Origin: Thermoanaerobaculia bacterium
Lineage (GTDB): Bacteria > Acidobacteriota > Thermoanaerobaculia > Multivoradales > JAHEKO01
Direction: 5' to 3'
Length of the DNA: 48,894 bases
Assembly (NCBI GenBank): GCA_945787635.1
Contig: CALZIK010000007.1
Span: forward strand, 1-48,894
The translations under genes and the position numbers were made by a program. The notes beneath the pieces are model-generated. The model was not told the DNA's origin and made no database searches. It worked only from the letters and a program-made list of their open reading frames with translations. This document shows positions 3,575 through 47,940 of this stretch, piece by piece. Within the stretch, counting starts at the first letter, position 1. The number at the start of each line of letters is the position of its first letter.

Positions 3575-5224
3575 TTAGCGGGCGCCCCCGCCCACGCGGG
3601 ATTGGTCTTTGGCCTCAGCCAGAGCGACTGCCGACCTGTCGGCGTTGGCCTTGTAGTAGCCCACGAATCGATTGGTCTCATGGGAGTCGTAGGCTTCGAG
3701 GTTCCGCGCCCAGCGGTAGCCGATGGTCTGGTAGAAGAGCCCGACCGAGACCTGTACCGAGTTGACGCCCTCCGGGAGCGAGACCCGATACCGAATGCTG
3801 TCGCCACCCGCGTCGAAATCGTCGTCGTCGGATGCGGCTCCACGGACGGCGATGGCAGCCTCGGTTGTCGACTTGTCGAAGCCCTCGGGCAGCAGGCGGT
3901 TGTCCTTGGCGTAGGCGACGCCCGCCAGAAGTGAGGTCGTCACCTCGTTTTTGTAGTCGTGGATGATCGGCTCGTAGATCTGCACCTGATCGGCGCTGGT
4001 GATCTCTTCATAGTGGGGCTCGTAGGTTTGGGGATCGGCGTCGTTGTCGTTGCCCGCGATCGAGCCGTCGGGACCGAGCGCTCCGGACTCGAAGACCGTC
4101 AGGCCGCTCTCATCACGGACCGTTACGTGCAGCCAAGCGCGGCGCGACGGATAGGCAGTCGGCAGCTTGTGACCAGCCAGGTTGGTGACGCTGATGTCGA
4201 TGAGTGCTTCGGAGTCCGACACCTGAAGGCCGGTGACCTCGATGCGGGCAGCACTCGATTGCAGATGAACCAGCGTTGCCTGGGCGGATTGTTCGAGTTC
4301 CGCGACCGGCGTCGTCACCCCGAGCTCGTCCCGGTACTTGTTGAGTATCTGAAGCATGAAGGCGTTGCCGCCGCGGAAGACATGGCGCGAGACGTTGTCT
4401 CGGGGCTCACCCAGAACCGAGGCAATCGGGACGGGCACGTCCACCTCGGGCATATGACAATCCTGGCAGCTCTGCGTGCCTTCGTAAGCGCTGTGCTTCC
4501 ATTCGAGATAGGGCACCTGCTCGGGGAAATCGCCGATGACTTGGCCCTCGCCATCCGTCGCGGGTGTGAACAGCGTGTGGCAGGTGGCGCAGAGCTCCGA
4601 GCGCTGGATGTGCAGCCCTTCGGCCGGCAAAAGTGCCGATGCTGAGTGCATGACCCTCTGGAGCCCGGGAGCGATTTCGTACGGCCCGTAGACTTTGCCT
4701 TGCTCCGGCAGGGACGGCTCGATGAGGTAGCCACCGTCGAAGCTCGTGTGTTCGCCCAGGTTCTCCGCCGAGATCTGGTGACACACCGTGCAGGACACGC
4801 CGTCGGCGCCGAGCTGCTGCTCTTGGGGCGTGAAGCCGCCCTCGAGATAGCGGAGGATCTCGCCGGACCGTTCGTTCGCTACTGCCTGGGTTCGAAACAT
4901 GGGCATGTGGCAGACCGAGCAGGTGTCTTCGATCATCGCCTGCAAGTGCGGGCGATCTGCGATCTCGCGGCGCACGGCCGCTTGCCAATACGGGTCCTTG
5001 GCGGATTGTGCCATCAGGGACGCGCGCCAGGTATGGCCGATCGAAAGGGTCTCTCCCCCGGCGTCGACCATGTTGCTGTGGCAGCCGATGCATTGGTCGG
5101 AGGTGACGAAAGTGGGCTGGGGTCCATCCGGTGTGACCGCGGGAGCCGCCGGCGAAGCTGCGGTGGCCAGCGCAATAGAAAACGCGGTCATCATCCCGAG
5201 TTTCATCAGCCGCTTACCAGCCAT
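3575..5224 (-). CDS. Secreted pentaheme c-type cytochrome with C-terminal beta domain
   Basis: A 549-residue exported multiheme cytochrome. Start ATG 5224 ('MAGKRLMKLGMMTAFSIALA') follows a GGAGGG ribosome site and gives a signal peptide of about 28 residues; a start at 5278 would spoil it. Five CXXCH haem sites lie at residues 45 (CIGCH), 102 (CSVCH), 145 (CTVCH), 212 (CATCH) and 253 (CQDCH). From about residue 320 there is a beta-sandwich-like domain with 'VTNLAGHKLPTAYPSRRAWL'. The protein is a paralogue of the product of 46570-47940, which shares haem order and the 'AGHxxPT' motif. The gene overlaps the upstream cytochrome-barrel gene by 11 bases, so the two are coupled and probably work together in periplasmic or outer-membrane electron transfer. 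The electron donor and acceptor are unknown. Confidence 0.85.
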   Translation of the reverse strand: MAGKRLMKLGMMTAFSIALATAASPAAPAVTPDGPQPTFVTSDQCIGCHSNMVDAGGETLSIGHTWRASLMAQSAKDPYWQAAVRREIADRPHLQAMIEDTCSVCHMPMFRTQAVANERSGEILRYLEGGFTPQEQQLGADGVSCTVCHQISAENLGEHTSFDGGYLIEPSLPEQGKVYGPYEIAPGLQRVMHSASALLPAEGLHIQRSELCATCHTLFTPATDGEGQVIGDFPEQVPYLEWKHSAYEGTQSCQDCHMPEVDVPVPIASVLGEPRDNVSRHVFRGGNAFMLQILNKYRDELGVTTPVAELEQSAQATLVHLQSSAARIEVTGLQVSDSEALIDISVTNLAGHKLPTAYPSRRAWLHVTVRDESGLTVFESGALGPDGSIAGNDNDADPQTYEPHYEEITSADQVQIYEPIIHDYKNEVTTSLLAGVAYAKDNRLLPEGFDKSTTEAAIAVRGAASDDDDFDAGGDSIRYRVSLPEGVNSVQVSVGLFYQTIGYRWARNLEAYDSHETNRFVGYYKANADRSAVALAEAKDQSRVGGGAR

Positions 5225-6290
5225 CGAAAAACCCTCCGTCGAACCAGTCCCACAGCAGATACGTGACGAGTTGCGCATCCCGCCCCGCGGTCTCAGTCAC
5301 CGGAACGCGTATTCCCAGGTTGAAGAGTATGTGCTGGCGTGTATTGAGTGCCACCTGGCACTGCGGCACGAGATCGATCTTTGTCTTGGCGCCAGAGGCC
5401 AGGTCCCGGACCGAGAGCACCTCGAGCATCGGTGACCAGGCGCGGCCAAACTCGCCGCCGCTCGTCCAGGTCTTGCCTAGCGCCAGTCGGAGTCCCAGCT
5501 CGTCATCGAATCCGCCTTCGGTCGGGAACTCGGCGAATGCATGCGCCTGGAAGAAGGCGTCGGAAGCGAGCAGTCTTCCCCAGGTCGCGAACGGCTCGAG
5601 CACCGTTGTGCCCTTGCCGAGCCCTTTGTCCTCGTCACCGCTCGGCAGAATCACCTCGCCGCCGAGGCTGACGATGTTGCCGCTGGCCAGATTGCTGTAG
5701 ACGGTGTGTTTGTAGCCGAGCGCGATGTCGCCGACTCCGGTCTCGCGGCTTCCGGTGGGTGAATCGACGCTGGCGAGTGGCACCGCGATCTCCACCATGC
5801 CGACCGGACCAAAGCGTTTCTCGTAGAGAATCTCCAGCTCAGATGCGTCCCCGTCGCCGCTGGCGGTGAACACCGCTTCGTCCTCGGGGAAGGCCTTTTC
5901 CGTGAAGAGCGGTCGTGGCAGGTTGAACTCGCCGCGCGGCCAGCGCGGGTCGTCGCACAAGGTGCGGACGTGGACGAGGATCTTCTCGATCTCGTCGCCC
6001 GTCAGCGCGTCGCCGAAGGCCGGCATCATGCGACCGAACGCCCGCACCGGTCCGCCCTCGTGGATGATGGCGTACCAGTCCGGGTCCGGCTCCCTGGAAG
6101 CGAACTCGCAGTCGGAGAAATCGGGCACCGGTGTCTCGAACGCCAGGTCTTGTTGAGCTCTTCCCTTGCCGTCGGCGCCGTGGCAGCTCGCGCAGGCGCT
6201 TGCGTAGAGCCCCGCTGGGCTTCTGTCCTGGGCCGACGAGATGGCCGCTAACAGCAGCAGAGCCGCGAAGATCAAGGGTGGCTGTCTCAT
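5214..6290 (-). CDS. c-type cytochrome fused to a putative outer-membrane beta-barrel
   Basis: A 358-residue protein with a signal peptide ('MRQPPLIFAALLLLAAISSA'), a single haem site CASCH (residues 33-37) and a likely distal Met in 'FGRMMPAFGDAL', together forming a class I cytochrome c domain of about 110 residues. The remaining 220 residues carry no haem motif and read as alternating amphipathic strands separated by charged turns ('GVGDIALGYKHTVYSNLASG', 'SDAFFQAHAFAEFPTEGG', 'QHILFNLGIRVPV'), as in small outer-membrane transporter-like barrels. The protein ends in an aromatic stretch. It is the first gene of an operon with the pentaheme cytochrome. A monohaem domain joined to a barrel is unusual; an outer-membrane electron conduit is a hypothesis, not shown. 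Confidence 0.75.
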   Translation of the reverse strand: MRQPPLIFAALLLLAAISSAQDRSPAGLYASACASCHGADGKGRAQQDLAFETPVPDFSDCEFASREPDPDWYAIIHEGGPVRAFGRMMPAFGDALTGDEIEKILVHVRTLCDDPRWPRGEFNLPRPLFTEKAFPEDEAVFTASGDGDASELEILYEKRFGPVGMVEIAVPLASVDSPTGSRETGVGDIALGYKHTVYSNLASGNIVSLGGEVILPSGDEDKGLGKGTTVLEPFATWGRLLASDAFFQAHAFAEFPTEGGFDDELGLRLALGKTWTSGGEFGRAWSPMLEVLSVRDLASGAKTKIDLVPQCQVALNTRQHILFNLGIRVPVTETAGRDAQLVTYLLWDWFDGGFFDGW

Positions 6291-37803: not shown

Positions 37804-40800
37804 ATGATGTCCCGGGACGTGGAACTCGAAGTGAACGCCACCGACCCCGTCATTGTCGTTCCTCACCAGTGGGAAGAGCCGATCCGCGCCGAGCTCTTCG
37901 GCATCGAGCGCCTGGAGCAACACGCCGAGAGCCTGGCCGCGGCACAGCGCGCAGCCTACGAGCCCTCCAAAGGACGGAATCTCCTGCCGAGGGTCCGCGA
38001 CAACGGCCAGGTGCTTCTGGCCGCATACCGAAACGTCGCCGAGACGGTCCGCGAGAAGGGCGAAATCACGCCCGCGGCGGAGTGGCTCCTCGACAACTTC
38101 CACATTGTGGAGGAACAGATCCGTGGGATCCGGGACCACCTGCCGGGGAGCTACTACCGCCTGCTGCCGAAGATCGCCGCGGGCCACCTGGCGGGATACC
38201 CGCGCGTCTATGGGCTGGCCTGGGCCTACGTGGCTCATACCGACAGCCGGTTCGAGCTGGAGTCGCTACAGCGATTCGTCCGCGCCTACCAGCGCGTTCA
38301 GCCGCTCACCATCGGAGAGCTCTGGGCGATCGCCATCCACCTCCGCGTCGCCCTGGTAGAGAACCTGCGGCGGCTGTCGCAGCTGATCGTCCGCTCCCGG
38401 GAGGCGCGAGCCAGGGCCGACGAGTTGGCGGACCGCCTGCTGGGACAGAGCGGTCGGCCGGCTGAGCACGCGAAGGCTGTTCTGGGGCGCCTGGCTGACG
38501 CCCCGCTGCGCCGCCCGTTCGCCGTGCAGCTCGTCCAGCGGCTTCGTGACCAGGGACCCGAGATCATGCCGGCCCTGGCCTGGCTCGACGAAAAGCTGAG
38601 CGCCCACGGGAGGTCGGCCGATGAGGTGGTTGCTCAGGAACACCATGCCCAGGCCGCGGCAAGTGTCACCGTCCGCAACATCCTCACCAGCATGCGTTGG
38701 ATGTCCTCCATCGACTGGCTCGAGTTCTTCGAGGGCGTCAGTCTAGTGGACGAAGTTCTGCGCGCCGCGCCCGGGTTCGCGGCCTTCGACTTTGCGACAC
38801 GAGACGTGTACCGAGCCCAGATCGAGTTGCTCTCCCGAGGCTCGGGGCGATCGGAGATCGAGGTGGCGCGGGAAACTGTGTTCCTGGCCGGACGTACAGC
38901 CCGGGGGAACGCTCAAGCCGCCGGCGCCGGGGTGGAGGCCGACTCTCGGGAGAGCGCGCCGGGGCTTCCCGGTGTTCCCGAGCGTGCCGAGGAGGACCCG
39001 GGGTACTACCTCCTGTCCGGGGGCAGGCGGGCTTTCGAGAAGCAGCTGGGGTTTCGCGTTCCGTTTCGAATCCGACTCCGCCGCTTCTGTCGCACCCATG
39101 CGACCGCCGGATACCTGGGAACGATTGCTTTCCTCACCGCCCTCCTGCTTTCCGCCCTGGTGTTCTACACGTGGACGGCCGGGGCAGGCCCCTCGGTCCT
39201 CGTCCTGCTGGGAATCCTGGGCCTGGTGCCCGCTTCAGAGATCGCGGTGTCCCTCGTCCATCGCCTGGTTCCGATTCTCGTTCCACCCAGGTTGCTCCCC
39301 AAGCTCGAGCTTGCCCAGGGCGTGCCTCCGGAGCTTCGAACCCTGGTCGTCGTGCCGATGTTGCTGACGAGGCACGACGACATCGAAGAGCAGGTCGAGC
39401 GGCTCGAGGTGCACTTCCTGGCAAATCCCGAAGGCCATCTCCACTTTGCTCTCCTGAGTGACTGGGCGGACGCTCCCCACGAGCGTATGCCCGGCGACGA
39501 GGATCTCCTGGCCGCGCTGGCCGCTGGCATGGCGAGCCTCAACCAGAAATACGAGGGTCCGCCCGGAGCCGAGAGCCGTTTTTTCCTGTTGCATCGTCGG
39601 CGTCTCTGGAACGAAAAGGAAGGCAAGTGGATCGGCTGGGAAAGGAAGCGAGGGAAACTCCATGAGCTGAATCGGCTTCTGCGCGGCGCCAAGGACACCA
39701 CGTTCGTGCCAGTCGACGGACAGCCGCCCGTTGTGCCTCAGGGGATCCGCTACGTCATCACCCTCGATGCCGACACCCGGCTTCCCAAGGGGAGCGCCTA
39801 TCGCCTCGTCGGGGCCGCGGCGCACCCGTTGAACCGGCCGTTCTTCGACCCCGGGAAAGGACGGGTCGTCGAGGGCTACGCGGTTTTGCAGCCTCGGATC
39901 ACGCCGTCCTTGCCGACGGGTCCGGCAAGCACGGCCTACCAGCGGATCGTCTCGGGCCCCGGAGGCGTCGACCCGTACGCGGCGGCTGTCTCCGATGTGT
40001 ATCAGGACCTCTTCAGGGAGGGCTCCTATACAGGCAAGGGAATCTATGACGTCGAGGCCTTCGAGGCGGCGCTCGAGGGAACGGTCCCGGAGAACGCGCT
40101 GCTCAGCCATGACCTGTTCGAGGGCTTGTTCGCGCGCGTCGGGTTGGTGACCGATGTGGATCTCTTCGAGGAGTTCCCCACCAACTACCAGGTGGCCGCC
40201 CGCCGCCATCATCGATGGGTGCGCGGCGACTGGCAGCTCCTGCCCTGGATCCTGGGCCACGCGCGCGATGCCGCGGGGCGGAGGCAGAGGGCTCGCATCC
40301 CCACCCTGGGCCGATGGAAGATGGTGGACAATCTCCGCCGAAGTCTCGTCGCGCCTTTCTCGTTTCTCGTGGCGGTGGCCGGCTGGATCCTACCCGCCGT
40401 TCCGCCCCTCCTCTGGACCGGCCTGCTCGTTGGAGCCGTCGCTGTCCCGAGCGTCATCCCGGTTCTCGACGGCCTCCTTCCCCGGCGATGGGGGATCTCC
40501 AAGCGCAGCCACCTGCGCGCCGTGGGGCGCGACATTTACGTGGCCCTGTCACAAACGCTTCTGGCCATCACCATGCTGACCCACCAGACCTGGCTCATGG
40601 TGGATGCCGTGGTGCGTACGCTCGGGCGGCTCTACCTCACGAAACGAAACCTCCTCGAGTGGGTGACGGCTGCGCGCGCGGGCTACGGGGCCGAGTTGGG
40701 ACTCCGGGTCTTCCACTGGCACCTTCGCTGGGGCGTGGTCCTCGCCGTCGGAGCCGGGGTTCTCGTTGTTTTCTTCAAGCCGGGAGCCTGGCCAGCAGCC

Positions 40801-43800
40801 GCGCCGGTCGTTCTCCTCTGGGTGCTGGCACCCGTTCTCGCGTGGCGGATGAGCGTTCCGGCCAAGATCGCAAAATCGCAAATTCTCTCCCCGCACGAGA
40901 CGCGCTCCTTGAGGCTCATCGCCCGCCGGACCTGGCGCTTCTTCGAGACGTTTGTGGACGAGGAGGAGCATGCTCTGCCGCCGGACAACTTTCAGGAAGA
41001 CCCCGAGCCTGTGGAAGCGCACCGCACCTCGCCGACGAATCTGGGTCTGTATCTCCTGAGCACGATGGTCGCCCATGACTTCGGCTGGATTGGGATTCTG
41101 GACACGGTGGAACGGCTCGAGGCCACGCTCGAGACCATGGCCAAGCTGCGTCGCGTCCGAGGCCATTTCTGCAACTGGTACGACACCCGGGACCTCCGGC
41201 CGTTGGAGCCCATTTACGTTTCCACCGTGGACAGCGGCAATCTGGCCGGGCACCTGATCGCCCTGTCTCAAGCGTGCCGCGAGCTCATACAACGGCCCCC
41301 CTTCGGCCCGGAGACCCTGGAGGGAGCCCGCGACGCTCTCCAGTTGGTTCTCGATTCCGTGCAGAAGGCCGAGCATCCCCAACGCACGCAAATAGTCGCG
41401 GCGGTGCAGCTGCGCGAAGCCGCGGCGGCGATGTCGGCCGTCCTCGAGGTTCCCCCGACGTCCCTCCCGGAATGGGTCGAGCGGCTCGAGGAGTTGGAGG
41501 TCCAGGCCGAGAATCTTCTGGACATCGCGCGTACGCTCTCGAGCGACGGCGAGGACAGCTCCCGCTCCGAGGTCCTGGCCTGGGCCCGGGCGGTACGGGA
41601 CTCCGTCCGGAGCCACGCCCGCGATCTCGAGACCAGCCGACCCGATGCCGCGGCGACCCTCGGGCACCGGCTCTCCGCCCTCGCGCTGGTCGCCGAAGGG
41701 ATGGTCCAGGGCATGGACTTTCGGTTCCTCTACGACTCCTCGCGCAGGCTGTTCTCCATCGGCTACCGTGTGGCCGACGGCACGCTCGATCCCGGCAGCT
41801 ACGACCTGCTGGCCTCAGAGGCCAGGTTGGCAAGCTTTGTAGCCATCGCCAAGGGCGACGTCTCACCTCGGCACTGGTTTCTGCTCGGCCGGTCTCTCAC
41901 GCCGGTGCGACGTGGTGCGGCCCTCGTCTCCTGGTCGGGGTCCATGTTCGAGTACTTGATGCCGCTCCTCGTGATGCGGCAGCCCGCCCATAGCCTTCTG
42001 GATCTCACCTGCCGCCTCGTAGTAGGGCGCCAGATCCGGTACGGCGCGGAGCGAAGGGTTCCGTGGGGGGTCTCGGAATCGGCCTACAACGTTCGTGACG
42101 TGCAGCTCACGTATCAGTACTCGGATTTCGGCGTACCCGGCCTGGGACTCAAGCGAGGGCTGTTCGACGACGTGGTGGTGGCTCCCTACGCCACGGCACT
42201 CGCGGCCATGGTGGATCCCAGGGCCGCCCTGAACAACTTCGCCCGCCTCGAGCAAGCCGGTGCCCGAGGCGCCTACGGGTTCTATGAGGCCCTCGACTAC
42301 ACCCCCTCGAGGTTACCGGAGCAGGCCAGGGTGGCCGTGGTTCGGGCATACATGGCCCATCACCAGGGGATGACCCTCGTTGCTCTGGGCAACGTGGTTC
42401 ACGACGGCCGCACGCGGAGGCGTTTTCACGCCAATCCCCTGGTGCAGGCGGCGGAGCTGCTGCTCCAGGAGCGGACGCCGCGTGCCGTGGCCGTGGCCCG
42501 GCCTCGGGCCGAGGAGGTGAGGGAGGCGGCGCTCGTACGCGACCTTGTTCCCGCCACCTTGCGACGATTCGAATCGCCGCACGACATCACCCCCCGCACC
42601 CATCTCCTTTCCAACGGCCGCTACACGGTCATGGTCACGGCGGCGGGCTCCGGGTTCAGCCGGTGTGGGGACCTTGAGGTCACCCGTTGGCGCGAGGACA
42701 CAACGCGTGACTGCTGGGGCTCGTTCCTCTTCTTGCGGGACGCGGAGACCGGTGACGTTTGGTCCGCTGCATTCCAGCCCACTGGAACCGAAGCGGAGGA
42801 CTACGACGTCGTCTATTCCGAAGACCGGGCCAAGATCATGCAGCGGCACCGCTCCCTTTCGATCGCTCTGGAGATCGTGGTTTCCCCCGAGGACGATGCT
42901 GAGCTTCGCCGGCTGACGGTGACCAATCTCGAGAACCATGACCGTGAGATCGATGTCACGTCATATGCCGAGGTCGTGCTGGCTCCGCAGGGTGTGGACG
43001 AAGCCCACCCCGCGTTCTCGAACCTCTTCGTGGAGACGGAGTTCGTTCCCAAGCTCGGAACCCTGCTGGCTACACGGCGCCCACGTTCAGCAGAGGAGCC
43101 TCAGCCCTGGCTCGCCCATTTGGCTGCGGTCGAGGGGGGGACGGTTGGCAAGCTGCAGTACGAGAGCGACCGGGCGCGCTTTCTCGGTCGGGGCCGCGGG
43201 GTTCGGACGCCGCTCTCCGTGGTTGACGGGGGGCCCCTTTCGAACACTGGAGGAACCGTTCTGGATCCAATTGTGAGCCTCCGGCACCGTGTAGCGATTC
43301 CCGCCAGCGGGACGGTCAGTTTCGTGTTCACCACGCTCGTGGCGCCGTCCCGGGAAGAGGCTCTCGAGATTGCGGAGAAGTACCGCCAACCGGCAACGTT
43401 TGCGCGCGAGAGCTCCCTGGCGTGGACGCACGCACAAGTCCAGCTGCACCACCTCCGGATCACCCAGGACGAGGCGCATCTCTTCCAGCGTCTGGCCAAC
43501 CGTCTGCTCTACTCCGATCCCACATTGCGCGCAGCTACTCAGGTACTGACGAAGAACCGCGGTGGCGCGCCCGAGCTCTGGGCTTACGGCATCTCCGGCG
43601 ATCTTCCCATCGCTCTGGTGCGCATCGAGACGGAGGAGGAGCGGGAGGTCGCGAGGCAGCTCGTGCGGGCGCACGAGTACTGGTACCGGAAGGGGATTGC
43701 CGCCGACCTGGTGATCCTGAATGCGCAGGGCACCTCCTACGCACCGGGCCTCCAGGAGTCCCTCGAAGCCATGGTGCGAGCGATCCAGTCCGGAGCCGGC

Positions 43801-46434
43801 CACGAGGGCCATCCGTATCACGGAGGCGTGTTCGTGCTCAGGGCCGACCTCGTGTCCCCAGGTGACCAGATCCTCCTGCACGCGGCGGCGCGACTCGTAC
43901 TTCATGCGAACCGGGGGACACTCTCAGAGCAGTTGGTTCGGTTGGGGAGACTCCGGCCCGGGCCGGTGCCGCCGCGTCTCCGCCCGCAGCGTGACACGGC
44001 CGAATCCGTTTCTCCTCCGCCGCTGGATCTCGAGTTCTTCAACGGTCTGGGAGGATTCACACCGGACGGCCGGGAATACGTCACGGTGCTAGGCAAGGGG
44101 CAGTGGACCCCGGCTCCCTGGATCAACGTAGTGGCCAACCCGGGGTTCGGTTTCCAGGTCTCCGAGTCGGGCTCCGGCCATACCTGGTCCGAGAACAGCC
44201 GGGAGAACAAGCTCACGCCGTGGTCGAACGATCCCATCAGCGACACTCCGGGCGACACGTTCTATGTTCGTGATGAGGACAGTGGTCGGCTTTGGGGGCC
44301 GACCTGTCTCCCCATCCGCGAAGAAGGTTCGCCCTATGTCATCCGGCACGGTCAGGGCTACAGTCGATTCGAGCACACATCGCATGGCATCGCACTGGAT
44401 CTCCTGCAGTTCGTGCCGCTGCGTGACCCGATCAAGATCTCTCGGCTCACTCTGGAGAATCAGTCCGACCGCAAGCGGCGCCTTTCGGTCACTGCCTATG
44501 CGGAGTGGGTGCTGGGCGTTTCGAGGAGCGAGTCCGCACCGTTCGTGATCACCGACATCGAACCCGCGACGGGTGCCCTGTTTGCGCGAAATGCCTGGAA
44601 CCGGGAATTCGCCGACCGGGTCGCCTTCGCTGACCTGGGTGGCCGCCAGACCTCCTGGACCGGCGATCGCCTCGAGTTTCTGGGCCGAAATGCGAGCCTC
44701 GACCATCCCGCTTCACTGGAGCGCAGAGAGAAGCCATCGGGCAAGACCGGAGCAGGCTTGGATCCTTGCGCGGCTCTCCAGACGCAGGTGGAGCTCGAGC
44801 CGGGGGAGCGCACCGAGGTGCTGTTCTTGCTGGGCCAAGGTTCTGGCCCCGAGCAGGCCCGATCCCTGGTCGAACGCTATCGGACGCTGAGCTGCGACGT
44901 GGTTCTCCGCGAGGTGCAGGAGTACTGGAGCCAGGTCCTCGGCACGGTCCAGGTCAAGACACCCGACCCCTCGATGAACCTCCTCCTCAACCGCTGGCTT
45001 CTCTATCAAACGCTCTCCTGCCGCATCTGGGCTCGCTCGGCGTTCTACCAATCGGGCGGAGCGTACGGATTCCGCGACCAGCTGCAGGACGTCATGTCCC
45101 TGGCGGTGACGAAGCCCGAGCTCGTGGGCGAGCACATACTGCGAGCCGCTGCGCGGCAGTTCCGGGAAGGGGACGTCCAGCACTGGTGGCATCCTCCGAA
45201 GGGCCGCGGGGTTCGGACCCGTATCTCCGACGACCGCCTCTGGCTGCCATATGCGGTGGCCCACTATCTGAAGACGACCGAGGATCGGGCGGTGCTCGAC
45301 GAGGAGGTTGCGTGGCTCGATGGGCCGGTTCTCGAAGAGGGCCAGCAAGAAGCCTACTTCGAGCCCACGGAGTCGGAAGACCGGGCGACGCTCTACGAGC
45401 ACTGCGCGCGAGCGCTGGACCGGAGCCTCGAGGTGGGAAGCCACGATCTTCCCTTGATCGGGGCTGGTGATTGGAATGACGGCATGAACCGCGTCGGTCA
45501 CGAAGGCCGGGGAGAAAGCGTCTGGCTGGGGTGGTTTCTGCTCGCCAACCTGAGAGAGTTTGCCGACATCGCGGACTCGCGGGCGGAGGCGAAGCGTGCG
45601 GCACGGTGGCGGAAGCGGGCCGCGTCTCTCGAGGTCTCGCTGGACCGCGAGGCATGGGACGGCGCGTGGTATAGGCGAGCCTTCTTTGACGACGGGACGC
45701 CGCTCGGGTCGGCGACGAACGACGAATGCCAAATCGACTCCATTTCCCAGTCCTGGGCGGTCCTCTCAGGTGCTGGCAACGAGCAGCGGGCACGCCAGGC
45801 CATGGAGTCCGTGGAACGGCGGCTCGTTCGGCGCGAGAGCGGGCTCTTGCTGCTGTTTTCTCCGCCTTTCGACCGGACTCCTCTGGATCCGGGATACGTC
45901 AAGGGATACGTTCCCGGAATCCGCGAAAACGGCGGACAGTACACCCACGCCGCGATATGGTCGGTCGTGGCTTTCGCCATGCTCGGCGAGGGAGGCAAGG
46001 CCACCGATCTCTTCAACCTACTGAGTCCCATCCACCATACGAGCGGTAGGGCGGATCTTCACCGGTACAAGGCAGAGCCGTACGCAATAGCCGCGGACGT
46101 CTACTCTGAACCTCCTCACGAAGGTCGGGGAGGGTGGACGTGGTACACGGGGGCTGCGGGCTGGCTTTACCGCGCGGGCCTGGAGTGGATTCTCGGTTTC
46201 CGGAAGCGGGGCTCTGCCCTCTGTATTGACCCGTGCATTCCCGAGGACTGGAAACGCTTCGAGATCGCCTACCGTCATGGCGACACGCTCTACCGGATCA
46301 CCGTCGAAAACCCGAACGGAGTCTGCCGGGGGGTATCCCGGGTCAGCCTTGACGGAGCCCTTCTTCCTGGGGGAGCGCTTGTCCCCTTGGCCGACGACGC
46401 TCGCGAGCACGACGTTCAAGTGGTGCTCGGATAG
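37804..46434 (+). CDS. ndvB: Cyclic beta-1,2-glucan synthase (GT84 + glycoamylase-like + GH94), NdvB-like
   Basis: A 2876-residue multidomain enzyme, the usual length of NdvB/Cgs (about 2800-2870). After an N-terminal helical domain come membrane helices near 435-490 ('GTIAFLTALLLSALVFYTW'), the GT84 domain with 'RTLVVVPMLLTRHDDIEEQV' (about 513) and 'IRYVITLDADTRLPKGSAYR' (about 648), 'VTDVDLFEEFPTNYQVAARR' and 'HHRWVRGDWQLLPWI' near 780-815, and further helices near 847-890 and 978-1015. A glycoamylase-like domain follows ('SPTNLGLYLLSTMVAHDFGW' near 1078; 'NWYDTRDLRPLEPIYVSTVD' near 1122). The C-terminal third has beta-sandwich and GH94 phosphorylase parts, the latter with 'LPLIGAGDWNDGMNRVG' near 2553, containing the catalytic Asp. 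It makes and trims periplasmic cyclic beta-1,2-glucans from UDP-glucose. It is monocistronic. Confidence 0.95.
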   Translation: MMSRDVELEVNATDPVIVVPHQWEEPIRAELFGIERLEQHAESLAAAQRAAYEPSKGRNLLPRVRDNGQVLLAAYRNVAETVREKGEITPAAEWLLDNFHIVEEQIRGIRDHLPGSYYRLLPKIAAGHLAGYPRVYGLAWAYVAHTDSRFELESLQRFVRAYQRVQPLTIGELWAIAIHLRVALVENLRRLSQLIVRSREARARADELADRLLGQSGRPAEHAKAVLGRLADAPLRRPFAVQLVQRLRDQGPEIMPALAWLDEKLSAHGRSADEVVAQEHHAQAAASVTVRNILTSMRWMSSIDWLEFFEGVSLVDEVLRAAPGFAAFDFATRDVYRAQIELLSRGSGRSEIEVARETVFLAGRTARGNAQAAGAGVEADSRESAPGLPGVPERAEEDPGYYLLSGGRRAFEKQLGFRVPFRIRLRRFCRTHATAGYLGTIAFLTALLLSALVFYTWTAGAGPSVLVLLGILGLVPASEIAVSLVHRLVPILVPPRLLPKLELAQGVPPELRTLVVVPMLLTRHDDIEEQVERLEVHFLANPEGHLHFALLSDWADAPHERMPGDEDLLAALAAGMASLNQKYEGPPGAESRFFLLHRRRLWNEKEGKWIGWERKRGKLHELNRLLRGAKDTTFVPVDGQPPVVPQGIRYVITLDADTRLPKGSAYRLVGAAAHPLNRPFFDPGKGRVVEGYAVLQPRITPSLPTGPASTAYQRIVSGPGGVDPYAAAVSDVYQDLFREGSYTGKGIYDVEAFEAALEGTVPENALLSHDLFEGLFARVGLVTDVDLFEEFPTNYQVAARRHHRWVRGDWQLLPWILGHARDAAGRRQRARIPTLGRWKMVDNLRRSLVAPFSFLVAVAGWILPAVPPLLWTGLLVGAVAVPSVIPVLDGLLPRRWGISKRSHLRAVGRDIYVALSQTLLAITMLTHQTWLMVDAVVRTLGRLYLTKRNLLEWVTAARAGYGAELGLRVFHWHLRWGVVLAVGAGVLVVFFKPGAWPAAAPVVLLWVLAPVLAWRMSVPAKIAKSQILSPHETRSLRLIARRTWRFFETFVDEEEHALPPDNFQEDPEPVEAHRTSPTNLGLYLLSTMVAHDFGWIGILDTVERLEATLETMAKLRRVRGHFCNWYDTRDLRPLEPIYVSTVDSGNLAGHLIALSQACRELIQRPPFGPETLEGARDALQLVLDSVQKAEHPQRTQIVAAVQLREAAAAMSAVLEVPPTSLPEWVERLEELEVQAENLLDIARTLSSDGEDSSRSEVLAWARAVRDSVRSHARDLETSRPDAAATLGHRLSALALVAEGMVQGMDFRFLYDSSRRLFSIGYRVADGTLDPGSYDLLASEARLASFVAIAKGDVSPRHWFLLGRSLTPVRRGAALVSWSGSMFEYLMPLLVMRQPAHSLLDLTCRLVVGRQIRYGAERRVPWGVSESAYNVRDVQLTYQYSDFGVPGLGLKRGLFDDVVVAPYATALAAMVDPRAALNNFARLEQAGARGAYGFYEALDYTPSRLPEQARVAVVRAYMAHHQGMTLVALGNVVHDGRTRRRFHANPLVQAAELLLQERTPRAVAVARPRAEEVREAALVRDLVPATLRRFESPHDITPRTHLLSNGRYTVMVTAAGSGFSRCGDLEVTRWREDTTRDCWGSFLFLRDAETGDVWSAAFQPTGTEAEDYDVVYSEDRAKIMQRHRSLSIALEIVVSPEDDAELRRLTVTNLENHDREIDVTSYAEVVLAPQGVDEAHPAFSNLFVETEFVPKLGTLLATRRPRSAEEPQPWLAHLAAVEGGTVGKLQYESDRARFLGRGRGVRTPLSVVDGGPLSNTGGTVLDPIVSLRHRVAIPASGTVSFVFTTLVAPSREEALEIAEKYRQPATFARESSLAWTHAQVQLHHLRITQDEAHLFQRLANRLLYSDPTLRAATQVLTKNRGGAPELWAYGISGDLPIALVRIETEEEREVARQLVRAHEYWYRKGIAADLVILNAQGTSYAPGLQESLEAMVRAIQSGAGHEGHPYHGGVFVLRADLVSPGDQILLHAAARLVLHANRGTLSEQLVRLGRLRPGPVPPRLRPQRDTAESVSPPPLDLEFFNGLGGFTPDGREYVTVLGKGQWTPAPWINVVANPGFGFQVSESGSGHTWSENSRENKLTPWSNDPISDTPGDTFYVRDEDSGRLWGPTCLPIREEGSPYVIRHGQGYSRFEHTSHGIALDLLQFVPLRDPIKISRLTLENQSDRKRRLSVTAYAEWVLGVSRSESAPFVITDIEPATGALFARNAWNREFADRVAFADLGGRQTSWTGDRLEFLGRNASLDHPASLERREKPSGKTGAGLDPCAALQTQVELEPGERTEVLFLLGQGSGPEQARSLVERYRTLSCDVVLREVQEYWSQVLGTVQVKTPDPSMNLLLNRWLLYQTLSCRIWARSAFYQSGGAYGFRDQLQDVMSLAVTKPELVGEHILRAAARQFREGDVQHWWHPPKGRGVRTRISDDRLWLPYAVAHYLKTTEDRAVLDEEVAWLDGPVLEEGQQEAYFEPTESEDRATLYEHCARALDRSLEVGSHDLPLIGAGDWNDGMNRVGHEGRGESVWLGWFLLANLREFADIADSRAEAKRAARWRKRAASLEVSLDREAWDGAWYRRAFFDDGTPLGSATNDECQIDSISQSWAVLSGAGNEQRARQAMESVERRLVRRESGLLLLFSPPFDRTPLDPGYVKGYVPGIRENGGQYTHAAIWSVVAFAMLGEGGKATDLFNLLSPIHHTSGRADLHRYKAEPYAIAADVYSEPPHEGRGGWTWYTGAAGWLYRAGLEWILGFRKRGSALCIDPCIPEDWKRFEIAYRHGDTLYRITVENPNGVCRGVSRVSLDGALLPGGALVPLADDAREHDVQVVLG

Positions 46435-46487: not shown

Positions 46488-46569
46488 GGCATGGCTTCCG
46501 GAGATTCCTCATCCGGCAGGGGAGCCATGAGTGATACTAAGGGCTGATGTCAAAGCCAAGGAGGTAGCA

Positions 46570-47940
46570 ATGCCTAGTTCGCAAGTTCTGGTGGTCTTGT
46601 TCTTGGTTGTCGGAGGCACCGCATTGGCTCAGGATGCGGCGCCCACGCCGGTAGCCGGTGAGGCAGCGCTCGGCAGCCAACCCTACGACCAGTTCGAGCC
46701 GGATTCGTTTTGTGCCGAATGCCATGTGGATATAGCGGCCCAGCACGCCCAATCGATGATGTCGCAGTCGTACACCCACGCCTGGGACGAGATCGAGTAC
46801 TTCGAGCTGGCCCTGCCGCACAGCCAGAAGGAGCCCAAGGTGGCGGGCGTCCGGGAGGGTTGTAACGGATGCCATGCTCCACTGGCATTCCTCGCCGGTG
46901 ACATCCCGCCACCGCGGCCCTCGGAGGGTTCGCGAGCGAACGAGGGCGTGTCCTGCGACCTTTGCCACAGCATCGTCGGCTTCGAGGGTGAGGTTCCGTT
47001 CAACTTCAACTACATCGTCGACCCGAGTGACGTCGAGCAGGGCGTTCGTGGCGGGACCGACAACATGGGACACGACGTGCAGGCGAATCCGTTCCTGCAC
47101 ACCTCGGAATTCTGCGGTACCTGTCACAACGAAAAGGACCCCTGGGGCCTATGGGTCAAGGCCACACATCTCGAGTGGCAGGAGAGCCCACAAGCGAAGG
47201 CCGGGATCATCTGCCAGGACTGCCACATGCCGCCTGCGGCGGGCAACAGCGCTCCCGACATGGGCGGTGAGGACCGTGCTGATATCCGGCAGCACCTCTT
47301 CCACGGAGCCCACGATGCCGCCAAGCTCGCGGGCTCGGTCGAGGTCCGCCTTCATGCCCGCCAGGTGGAAGTGAAACCGGGCTCCGAGGTCGTCATGGTG
47401 GCGACGGTCGTCAATGCGAAGGCCGGGCACATGATTCCGACCGGTTCGGCTGAGGAGCGCGTTGTCTGGTTGCACGTAGAAGCCGAGGATGCCAAGGGCG
47501 GGCGACACCACTTGCGGGTCGATCGGAAAGGGTTCGAAGGCGAGTCCTACACCATCGCTTCCACCGAGGCTCTCGCGTACCACGATATCGGCGATATTCA
47601 GGAAATCGAGGCTTTCCCGGGTCTCTCGCGCGATGGGGACGTACCGGACGGTGATCGAATCTTCCGCCTGCCCTATCTGGATCCTCAAGGGCGAATGACG
47701 GTCGCGCAGTGGAACACGGCGGCGTTCGGACCCGACTACCGCCTGGCTCCGCTCCAGGCCCGCAACGAGACATTCACCTGGCAGCTTCCCAAGGACGTGC
47801 CGGTGGGAGCAGTCGAAGTGACCGCGACGGTCTGGTACTCCAAGCTGGTCTCTTCCGTTGCGGAGTTTCTAGGCGTGCCGCCGGAGGAAAGCGAGGCGGT
47901 GATGGTCAGCCAACACAGTACGGTCTTCACCGTGAAGTAG
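46570..47940 (+). CDS. Secreted pentaheme c-type cytochrome with C-terminal beta domain
   Basis: A 456-residue exported cytochrome. ATG 46570 follows an AAGGAGG site at five-base spacing and gives the signal 'QVLVVLFLVVGGTALAQ'; the earlier ATA-type reading from 46531 is not needed. Five CXXCH haem sites are at residues 48 (CAECH), 98 (CNGCH), 129 (CDLCH), 182 (CGTCH) and 215 (CQDCH). The C-terminal half is a beta domain with 'VVNAKAGHMIPTGSAEERVV'. It shares haem order, spacing pattern and the beta domain with the product of 3575-5224, 41 kb away, so the two are paralogues. It stands alone here, with no barrel partner. Probable periplasmic electron carrier or reductase; no catalytic motif is obvious. 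Confidence 0.88.
   Translation: MPSSQVLVVLFLVVGGTALAQDAAPTPVAGEAALGSQPYDQFEPDSFCAECHVDIAAQHAQSMMSQSYTHAWDEIEYFELALPHSQKEPKVAGVREGCNGCHAPLAFLAGDIPPPRPSEGSRANEGVSCDLCHSIVGFEGEVPFNFNYIVDPSDVEQGVRGGTDNMGHDVQANPFLHTSEFCGTCHNEKDPWGLWVKATHLEWQESPQAKAGIICQDCHMPPAAGNSAPDMGGEDRADIRQHLFHGAHDAAKLAGSVEVRLHARQVEVKPGSEVVMVATVVNAKAGHMIPTGSAEERVVWLHVEAEDAKGGRHHLRVDRKGFEGESYTIASTEALAYHDIGDIQEIEAFPGLSRDGDVPDGDRIFRLPYLDPQGRMTVAQWNTAAFGPDYRLAPLQARNETFTWQLPKDVPVGAVEVTATVWYSKLVSSVAEFLGVPPEESEAVMVSQHSTVFTVK

Follow-up and report, generated by a model that had tools for sequence, protein, structure and literature searches.

How could a protein that carries a single haem on a putative beta-barrel serve in electron transfer, and why should its gene run into that of a pentahaem cytochrome? 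This question is raised by two genes, here called P1 and P2, in a stretch of 48,894 nucleotides from a Thermoanaerobaculia bacterium of the phylum Acidobacteriota (contig CALZIK010000007.1; hereafter the window). The initial annotation described P1 as one CXXCH domain joined to a strand-like C-terminal part, with an 11-base overlap into an exported five-haem gene. Both descriptions were borne out: P1 has a single CASCH motif at residues 33-37 and, in an AlphaFold2 model, 12 strands between residues 138 and 348, and the overlap lies at the positions given in Table 1. An 11-base overlap is also the commonest P1-P2 spacing among relatives, with identical overlaps in many of them, which suggests that the two genes are translationally coupled. 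The start Met of P2, encoded at 5224-5222, is kept in 97% of the relatives; a longer P2 frame reaching up to 5278 was therefore rejected as a mechanical extension.

Table 1. Features of the P1/P2 locus, with positions counted from the first base of the window
Feature	Position	Strand	Extent	Description or basis
P1, cytochrome c-barrel fusion	5214..6290	-	358 aa	exported
P1 signal peptide			residues ~1-20	
P1 class I cytochrome c domain	5955..6230	-	residues ~21-112	PF13442, 7o38 fold match, conservation
P1 conserved linker			residues ~113-137	
P1 barrel domain, 12 strands	5241..5879	-	residues 138-350	AlphaFold2, fold matches, amphipathic alternation
P1 C-terminal tail				DGGFFDGW
P2, pentahaem cytochrome c	3575..5224	-	549 aa	exported; ExtKL / c552 (PHC) fold
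P1 stop / P2 start overlap	5214..5224	-	11 bases	

The N-terminal domain of P1 has the features of a class I cytochrome c. Residues 21-107 match Cytochrome_CBB3 (PF13442) with an E-value of 1.2e-8. In the AlphaFold2 model the helical cytochrome domain extends to residue 111, and it matches Kuenenia class I cytochromes (7o38) with a Z-score of 13.0 at 1.7 Å over 80 residues. Exactly one CXXCH motif was found in all 94 of the 94 P1 relatives. C33, C36, H37, and M89 are invariant, and Cys61 and Cys112 are nearly so. The invariance of the first four residues points to a His/Met haem, with Met89 as the probable sixth ligand.

The C-terminal part of P1 is predicted to form an outer-membrane barrel. 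The model, built from an alignment of 77 P1 sequences, has a mean pLDDT of 93.6 and a pTM of 0.87. Its barrel closely resembles those of FapF (5o65; Z 22.8, 2.5 Å, 217 residues) and of the COG4313 channel Pput2725 (4rl8; Z 21.9, 2.4 Å, 212 residues), and the best fold matches (FapF, COG4313, KdgM, and NanC) are all 12-stranded. The model and these matches rule out a soluble beta-sandwich, the fold that the initial annotation had set against its putative closed barrel. Residues 157-259 also match Phenol_MetA_deg (PF13557), at 18.6 bits and thus under the 22-bit Pfam cut-off. Only 7 of 5000 shuffled-strand sets showed an alternation of hydrophobic and polar faces as high as that of the P1 strands, and the alternation is weak in three of the 12. 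Several charged residues of the barrel strands (E157, R159, E167, D188, K194, E212, R268, E290, and D306) are strongly conserved, mostly on the predicted lumen face. The segment that precedes the first strand is also conserved, and it aligns with known barrels from residue 120/129.

P2 contains five CXXCH motifs, beginning at C45, C102, C145, C212, and C253. Its sequence matches the Thermochromatium tepidum cytochrome c552 weakly and scores 54.5 bits against the ExtKL family NF040886, for which the NCBIfam cut-off is 250; P2 is thus not ExtKL proper. The AlphaFold2 model of P2 (pLDDT 90) matches the T. tepidum pentahaem cytochrome c552 (5ze8) with a Z-score of 25.6 over 351 residues covering both domains. 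This is the one good match to a solved fold, the next best reaching a Z-score of 7.6. ExtKL of Geobacter belongs to this fold family (PHC), which has the archaeal nanowire protein AvECN as a relative (PMC11976967). The C-terminal domain of P2 is large and conserved, with H352, H404, and other residues invariant. A lipobox-like motif is absent from 58 of the 61 P2 sequences and no surface anchor was seen in them; P2 looks periplasmic. Another pentahaem cytochrome of the ExtKL/c552 type (469 aa) is encoded in the window at 46531-47940, on the forward strand; it scores 60.5 bits against NF040886, matches 5ze8 with an E-value of 6.7e-8, and is 26% identical to P2 when aligned over the five haems.

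A scan of bacterial genomes was performed to follow the distribution of P1. It yielded 129 relatives, of which the best 80 were retrieved. Their record titles name Acidobacteriota, Gemmatimonadota, Latescibacterota, Pseudomonadota, Myxococcota, Rhodothermota, and Balneolota, and the fusion spans at least six phyla. The P1-bearing records include chromosome-scale assemblies (L035 and L061) as well as an isolate, Rhodohalobacter sulfatireducens WB101 (L072), which has both P1 and P2 intact. Nearly identical P1 loci also occur in MAGs labelled as different phyla (L060, labelled Acidimicrobiia, and L073; L040 and L043); these conflicts are probably binning errors or mislabelled assemblies. P2 adjoins P1 in 69 of 92 loci, downstream and on the same strand in all of these except the divergent L048, and the pairing that had been noticed at a single locus therefore extends to its relatives. 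In ten of the 92 loci a copper-protein gene replaces P2 downstream of P1. No partner of either kind was detected beside P1 in the other 13, at least two of which lie at a contig end; one Myxococcota clade and two Acidobacteriota clades have no detected partner. Among 297 sampled genomes of the phylum, P1 is present in 37, and all strong P2 matches (at least 752 bits) lie beside P1 according to their listed coordinates. Chance is ruled out by the conservation of the pair in several phyla and by the repeated occurrence of the same 11-base overlap. The pairwise distances of P1 and P2 are correlated (r = 0.90), as would be expected of a pair inherited and transferred together, a correlation that alone is not proof of interaction. 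A larger conserved operon was considered and rejected; the neighbours mostly differ, and only small local groups have common ones. In the window, a 2876-aa open frame (37804-46434, forward strand) looks by eye like a cyclic beta-glucan synthetase, and no tRNA was found. Confidence is high that the genes, the barrel fold, the haem count, and the linkage of P1 and P2 are real.

In loci that lack P2, P1 is often followed directly by a gene for a protein with a type 1 copper domain. The alignment of these proteins shows H148, C186, and H189 to be invariant, and the ligand set consists of a His and a Cys-x-x-His-x-x-Met motif in a blue-copper domain; Thr replaces the Met ligand in one of the six sequences (one of the two that flank P1 in L125). 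Over the ligand region, the profile of the copper partner matched copper nitrite reductase (5e-7), a blue copper protein (7e-5), and amicyanin in the PDB. The copper domain went unnamed by Pfam, which recognized only the C-terminal, carboxypeptidase-regulatory-like part of these proteins. The copper arrangement requires four changes on the P1 tree, and the starred branches force at least three; it is therefore not the mark of a single odd lineage, although the branches are long in one deep group of five rows in this tree. In a divergent P1 clade (L123, L127, L128, L129, and L130) the copper protein is present in every member, and some members share the C-terminus LWEYLEPVRAR; in L127, L128, and L130, P1 lies near a gene that by eye resembles a PQQ-type beta-propeller protein. 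The one thing that pentahaem cytochromes and blue-copper proteins plainly have in common is that they carry electrons, and we take this as the best clue to function.

We lean towards the reading that the two genes encode a unit for electron exchange at the outer membrane, in which the haem is reached via a narrow channel; this appears somewhat probable. By prediction and comparison, P1 is an outer-membrane protein, a 12-strand barrel of the COG4313/FapF type that bears the class I monohaem cytochrome c on its N-terminal side. The bore of the COG4313 barrel measures 10-12 Å without the plug and is narrowed further by an N-terminal segment (PMC4493636), and the FapF barrel is plugged in a similar way (PMC5557850). 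Since a cytochrome c domain is too large for such a bore, its size would place the haem at the periplasmic mouth. With the haem there, P1 would not hold a haem wire like that of MtrAB, and what remains is the logic argued for Cyc2, in which a small dissolved substrate gets to the haem via the pore (PMC8406198). A small dissolved redox compound, such as a metal ion, a metal chelate, or a small organic molecule, may pass through the lumen to the P1 haem. Electrons would be exchanged between this haem and a periplasmic partner, which is the pentahaem P2 or, in some relatives, the blue-copper protein, and the partner would pass them to the respiratory chain or receive them from it. COG4313 channels may not be open pores, and hydrophobic molecules are thought to leave them by diffusing sideways, that of lateral diffusion being the route proposed (PMC4493636). 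The initial annotation had proposed a minimal unit for electron transfer across the outer membrane or at the cell surface. The outer-membrane barrel and the link to a pentahaem cytochrome stand; a complete wire is unlikely, and nothing puts P2 on the surface.

Confidence is moderate in electron transfer by the unit at the outer membrane, and low in any particular substrate or direction. A His/Met haem together with substitution by a cupredoxin points to a high-potential chain, and these sequence features suggest that electron uptake, with oxidation of the substrate, is more likely than reduction of metals at low potential. A purely high-potential chain is hard to square with the low potential ascribed to the T. 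tepidum relative of P2 (Chen 2019, as cited in PMC11976967). Two haem-copper oxidases are encoded in the genome, as are a conventional MtrB/PioB porin (302 bits), next to a multihaem frame (G000:C25:49336-52042), and several further multihaem proteins; electrons could thus flow either way. Large multihaem frames of 699 and 551 aa, each with many paired CXXCH motifs, are clustered at G000:C200:15318-28208 in the same genome.

The barrel may instead let in a small substrate for an enzyme, with P2 as the catalyst and the fused cytochrome c as no more than a relay of electrons to or from P2. P2 would then reduce or oxidize, for example, a sulfur, selenium, or nitrogen compound. The fold of P2 is in keeping with such a role, as ExtKL is linked to selenite reduction (PMC5877670) and models of its homologues in cable bacteria contain a pentacoordinate haem that is potentially catalytic (PMC11976967); the large C-terminal domain with its two invariant His residues also fits. 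However, a catalytic motif was not identified in P2, and a blue-copper carrier would be an unlikely substitute for a pentahaem enzyme, yet it is present in the ten relatives mentioned above. We therefore regard catalysis by P2 as rather unlikely.

It is improbable that P1 and P2 make up a full trans-outer-membrane conduit to solids, with P2 possibly exported to the surface or polymerising as AvECN does. The kinship of the P2 fold family with AvECN would suit such a conduit, as would the other multihaem and Mtr-type genes of the genome. However, a 12-strand barrel with the bore given above, even unplugged (PMC4493636), is too narrow for a chain of haems, and P1 has just one. The scarcity of lipobox-like motifs in P2 also argues against a surface location, and a conventional porin is already encoded elsewhere in the genome. 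That the barrel is an anchor alone, leaving P1 as an electron buffer or docking point tethered to the outer membrane with a lumen that passes nothing, is very improbable: the COG4313 crystal structure does have its barrel occluded by the N-terminal segment (PMC4493636), the place of which is taken in P1 by the long conserved linker, but the conserved charges, mostly facing the lumen, exceed what an anchor needs, though salt bridges to a plug could explain them.

The recurrence of the pair in several phyla, together with the occasional exchange of P2 for a copper protein, makes it look like a hitherto undescribed outer-membrane device for electron exchange. A literature search, largely confined to papers outside subscription, found no description of a P1-type fusion. 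More tentatively, P1 may represent a second, independent fused cytochrome-porin: a 12-strand outer-membrane oxidase or reductase distinct from Cyc2, with a periplasmic carrier that can be exchanged, found in several phyla many of whose members are uncultured. Fused cytochrome-porins are now recognised mainly via Cyc2, which serves as a marker of iron oxidation. If a second one exists, it would be an overlooked route of electron uptake from a dissolved substrate such as Fe(II), and surveys of electron exchange at the outer membrane would miss a common module that is invisible to the Cyc2 motif. P1 would also provide the pentahaem c552/ExtKL family, which is poorly understood, with a defined partner in the outer membrane, and the swap for a copper protein offers a simple genetic handle on the role of P2.

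Compared with known systems, the P1/P2 unit resembles MtrCAB, PioAB, and MtoAB in that an outer-membrane barrel is coupled to c-type haems. However, MtrAB-type conduits hold a decahaem cytochrome inside a 26-strand barrel, whereas P1 and P2 combine a 12-strand barrel with one and five haems, and the surface multihaem protein of MtrCAB-type conduits is missing. COG4313 / Phenol_MetA_deg channels (Pput2725 and SphA) and FapF have the same 12-strand barrel as P1, with an alignable segment before strand 1, but lack a cytochrome c domain; the coiled coil of FapF is absent from the P1 model, and no further operon genes in common with FapF were seen. P2 shares its five haems, overall fold, and an H-x-x-PT motif with ExtKL and the Thermochromatium c552, although its invariant Met71 aligns with a His in c552 and, unlike ExtKL, it is encoded outside any ext-like gene cluster. 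In layout, P1 resembles Cyc2 of Acidithiobacillus and Mariprofundus, in which an N-terminal cytochrome with one CXXCH is fused to an outer-membrane barrel. The initial annotation, which held that porin-cytochrome conduits normally use a separate porin, was incomplete on this point, as the fused, single-haem Cyc2 was already known; its haem lies at the periplasmic side, the placing proposed here for P1, and its barrel has 16 strands, against 12 in the P1 model (PMC8406198). The Cyc2 motif AXPXFAR[QK][TY] upstream of CXXCH was found in none of 92 P1 sequences, and its absence, together with the strand number, rules out that P1 is Cyc2. Moreover, the haem-bearing part of P1 is a complete class I cytochrome c with a Met ligand, against a short plug in Cyc2, and the P1 barrel belongs to the COG4313/FapF type, not to the OprP type. 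As in the copper-partner relatives of P1, the periplasmic partner of Cyc2 in Acidithiobacillus is a cupredoxin, rusticyanin; the usual partner of P1 is a pentahaem cytochrome.
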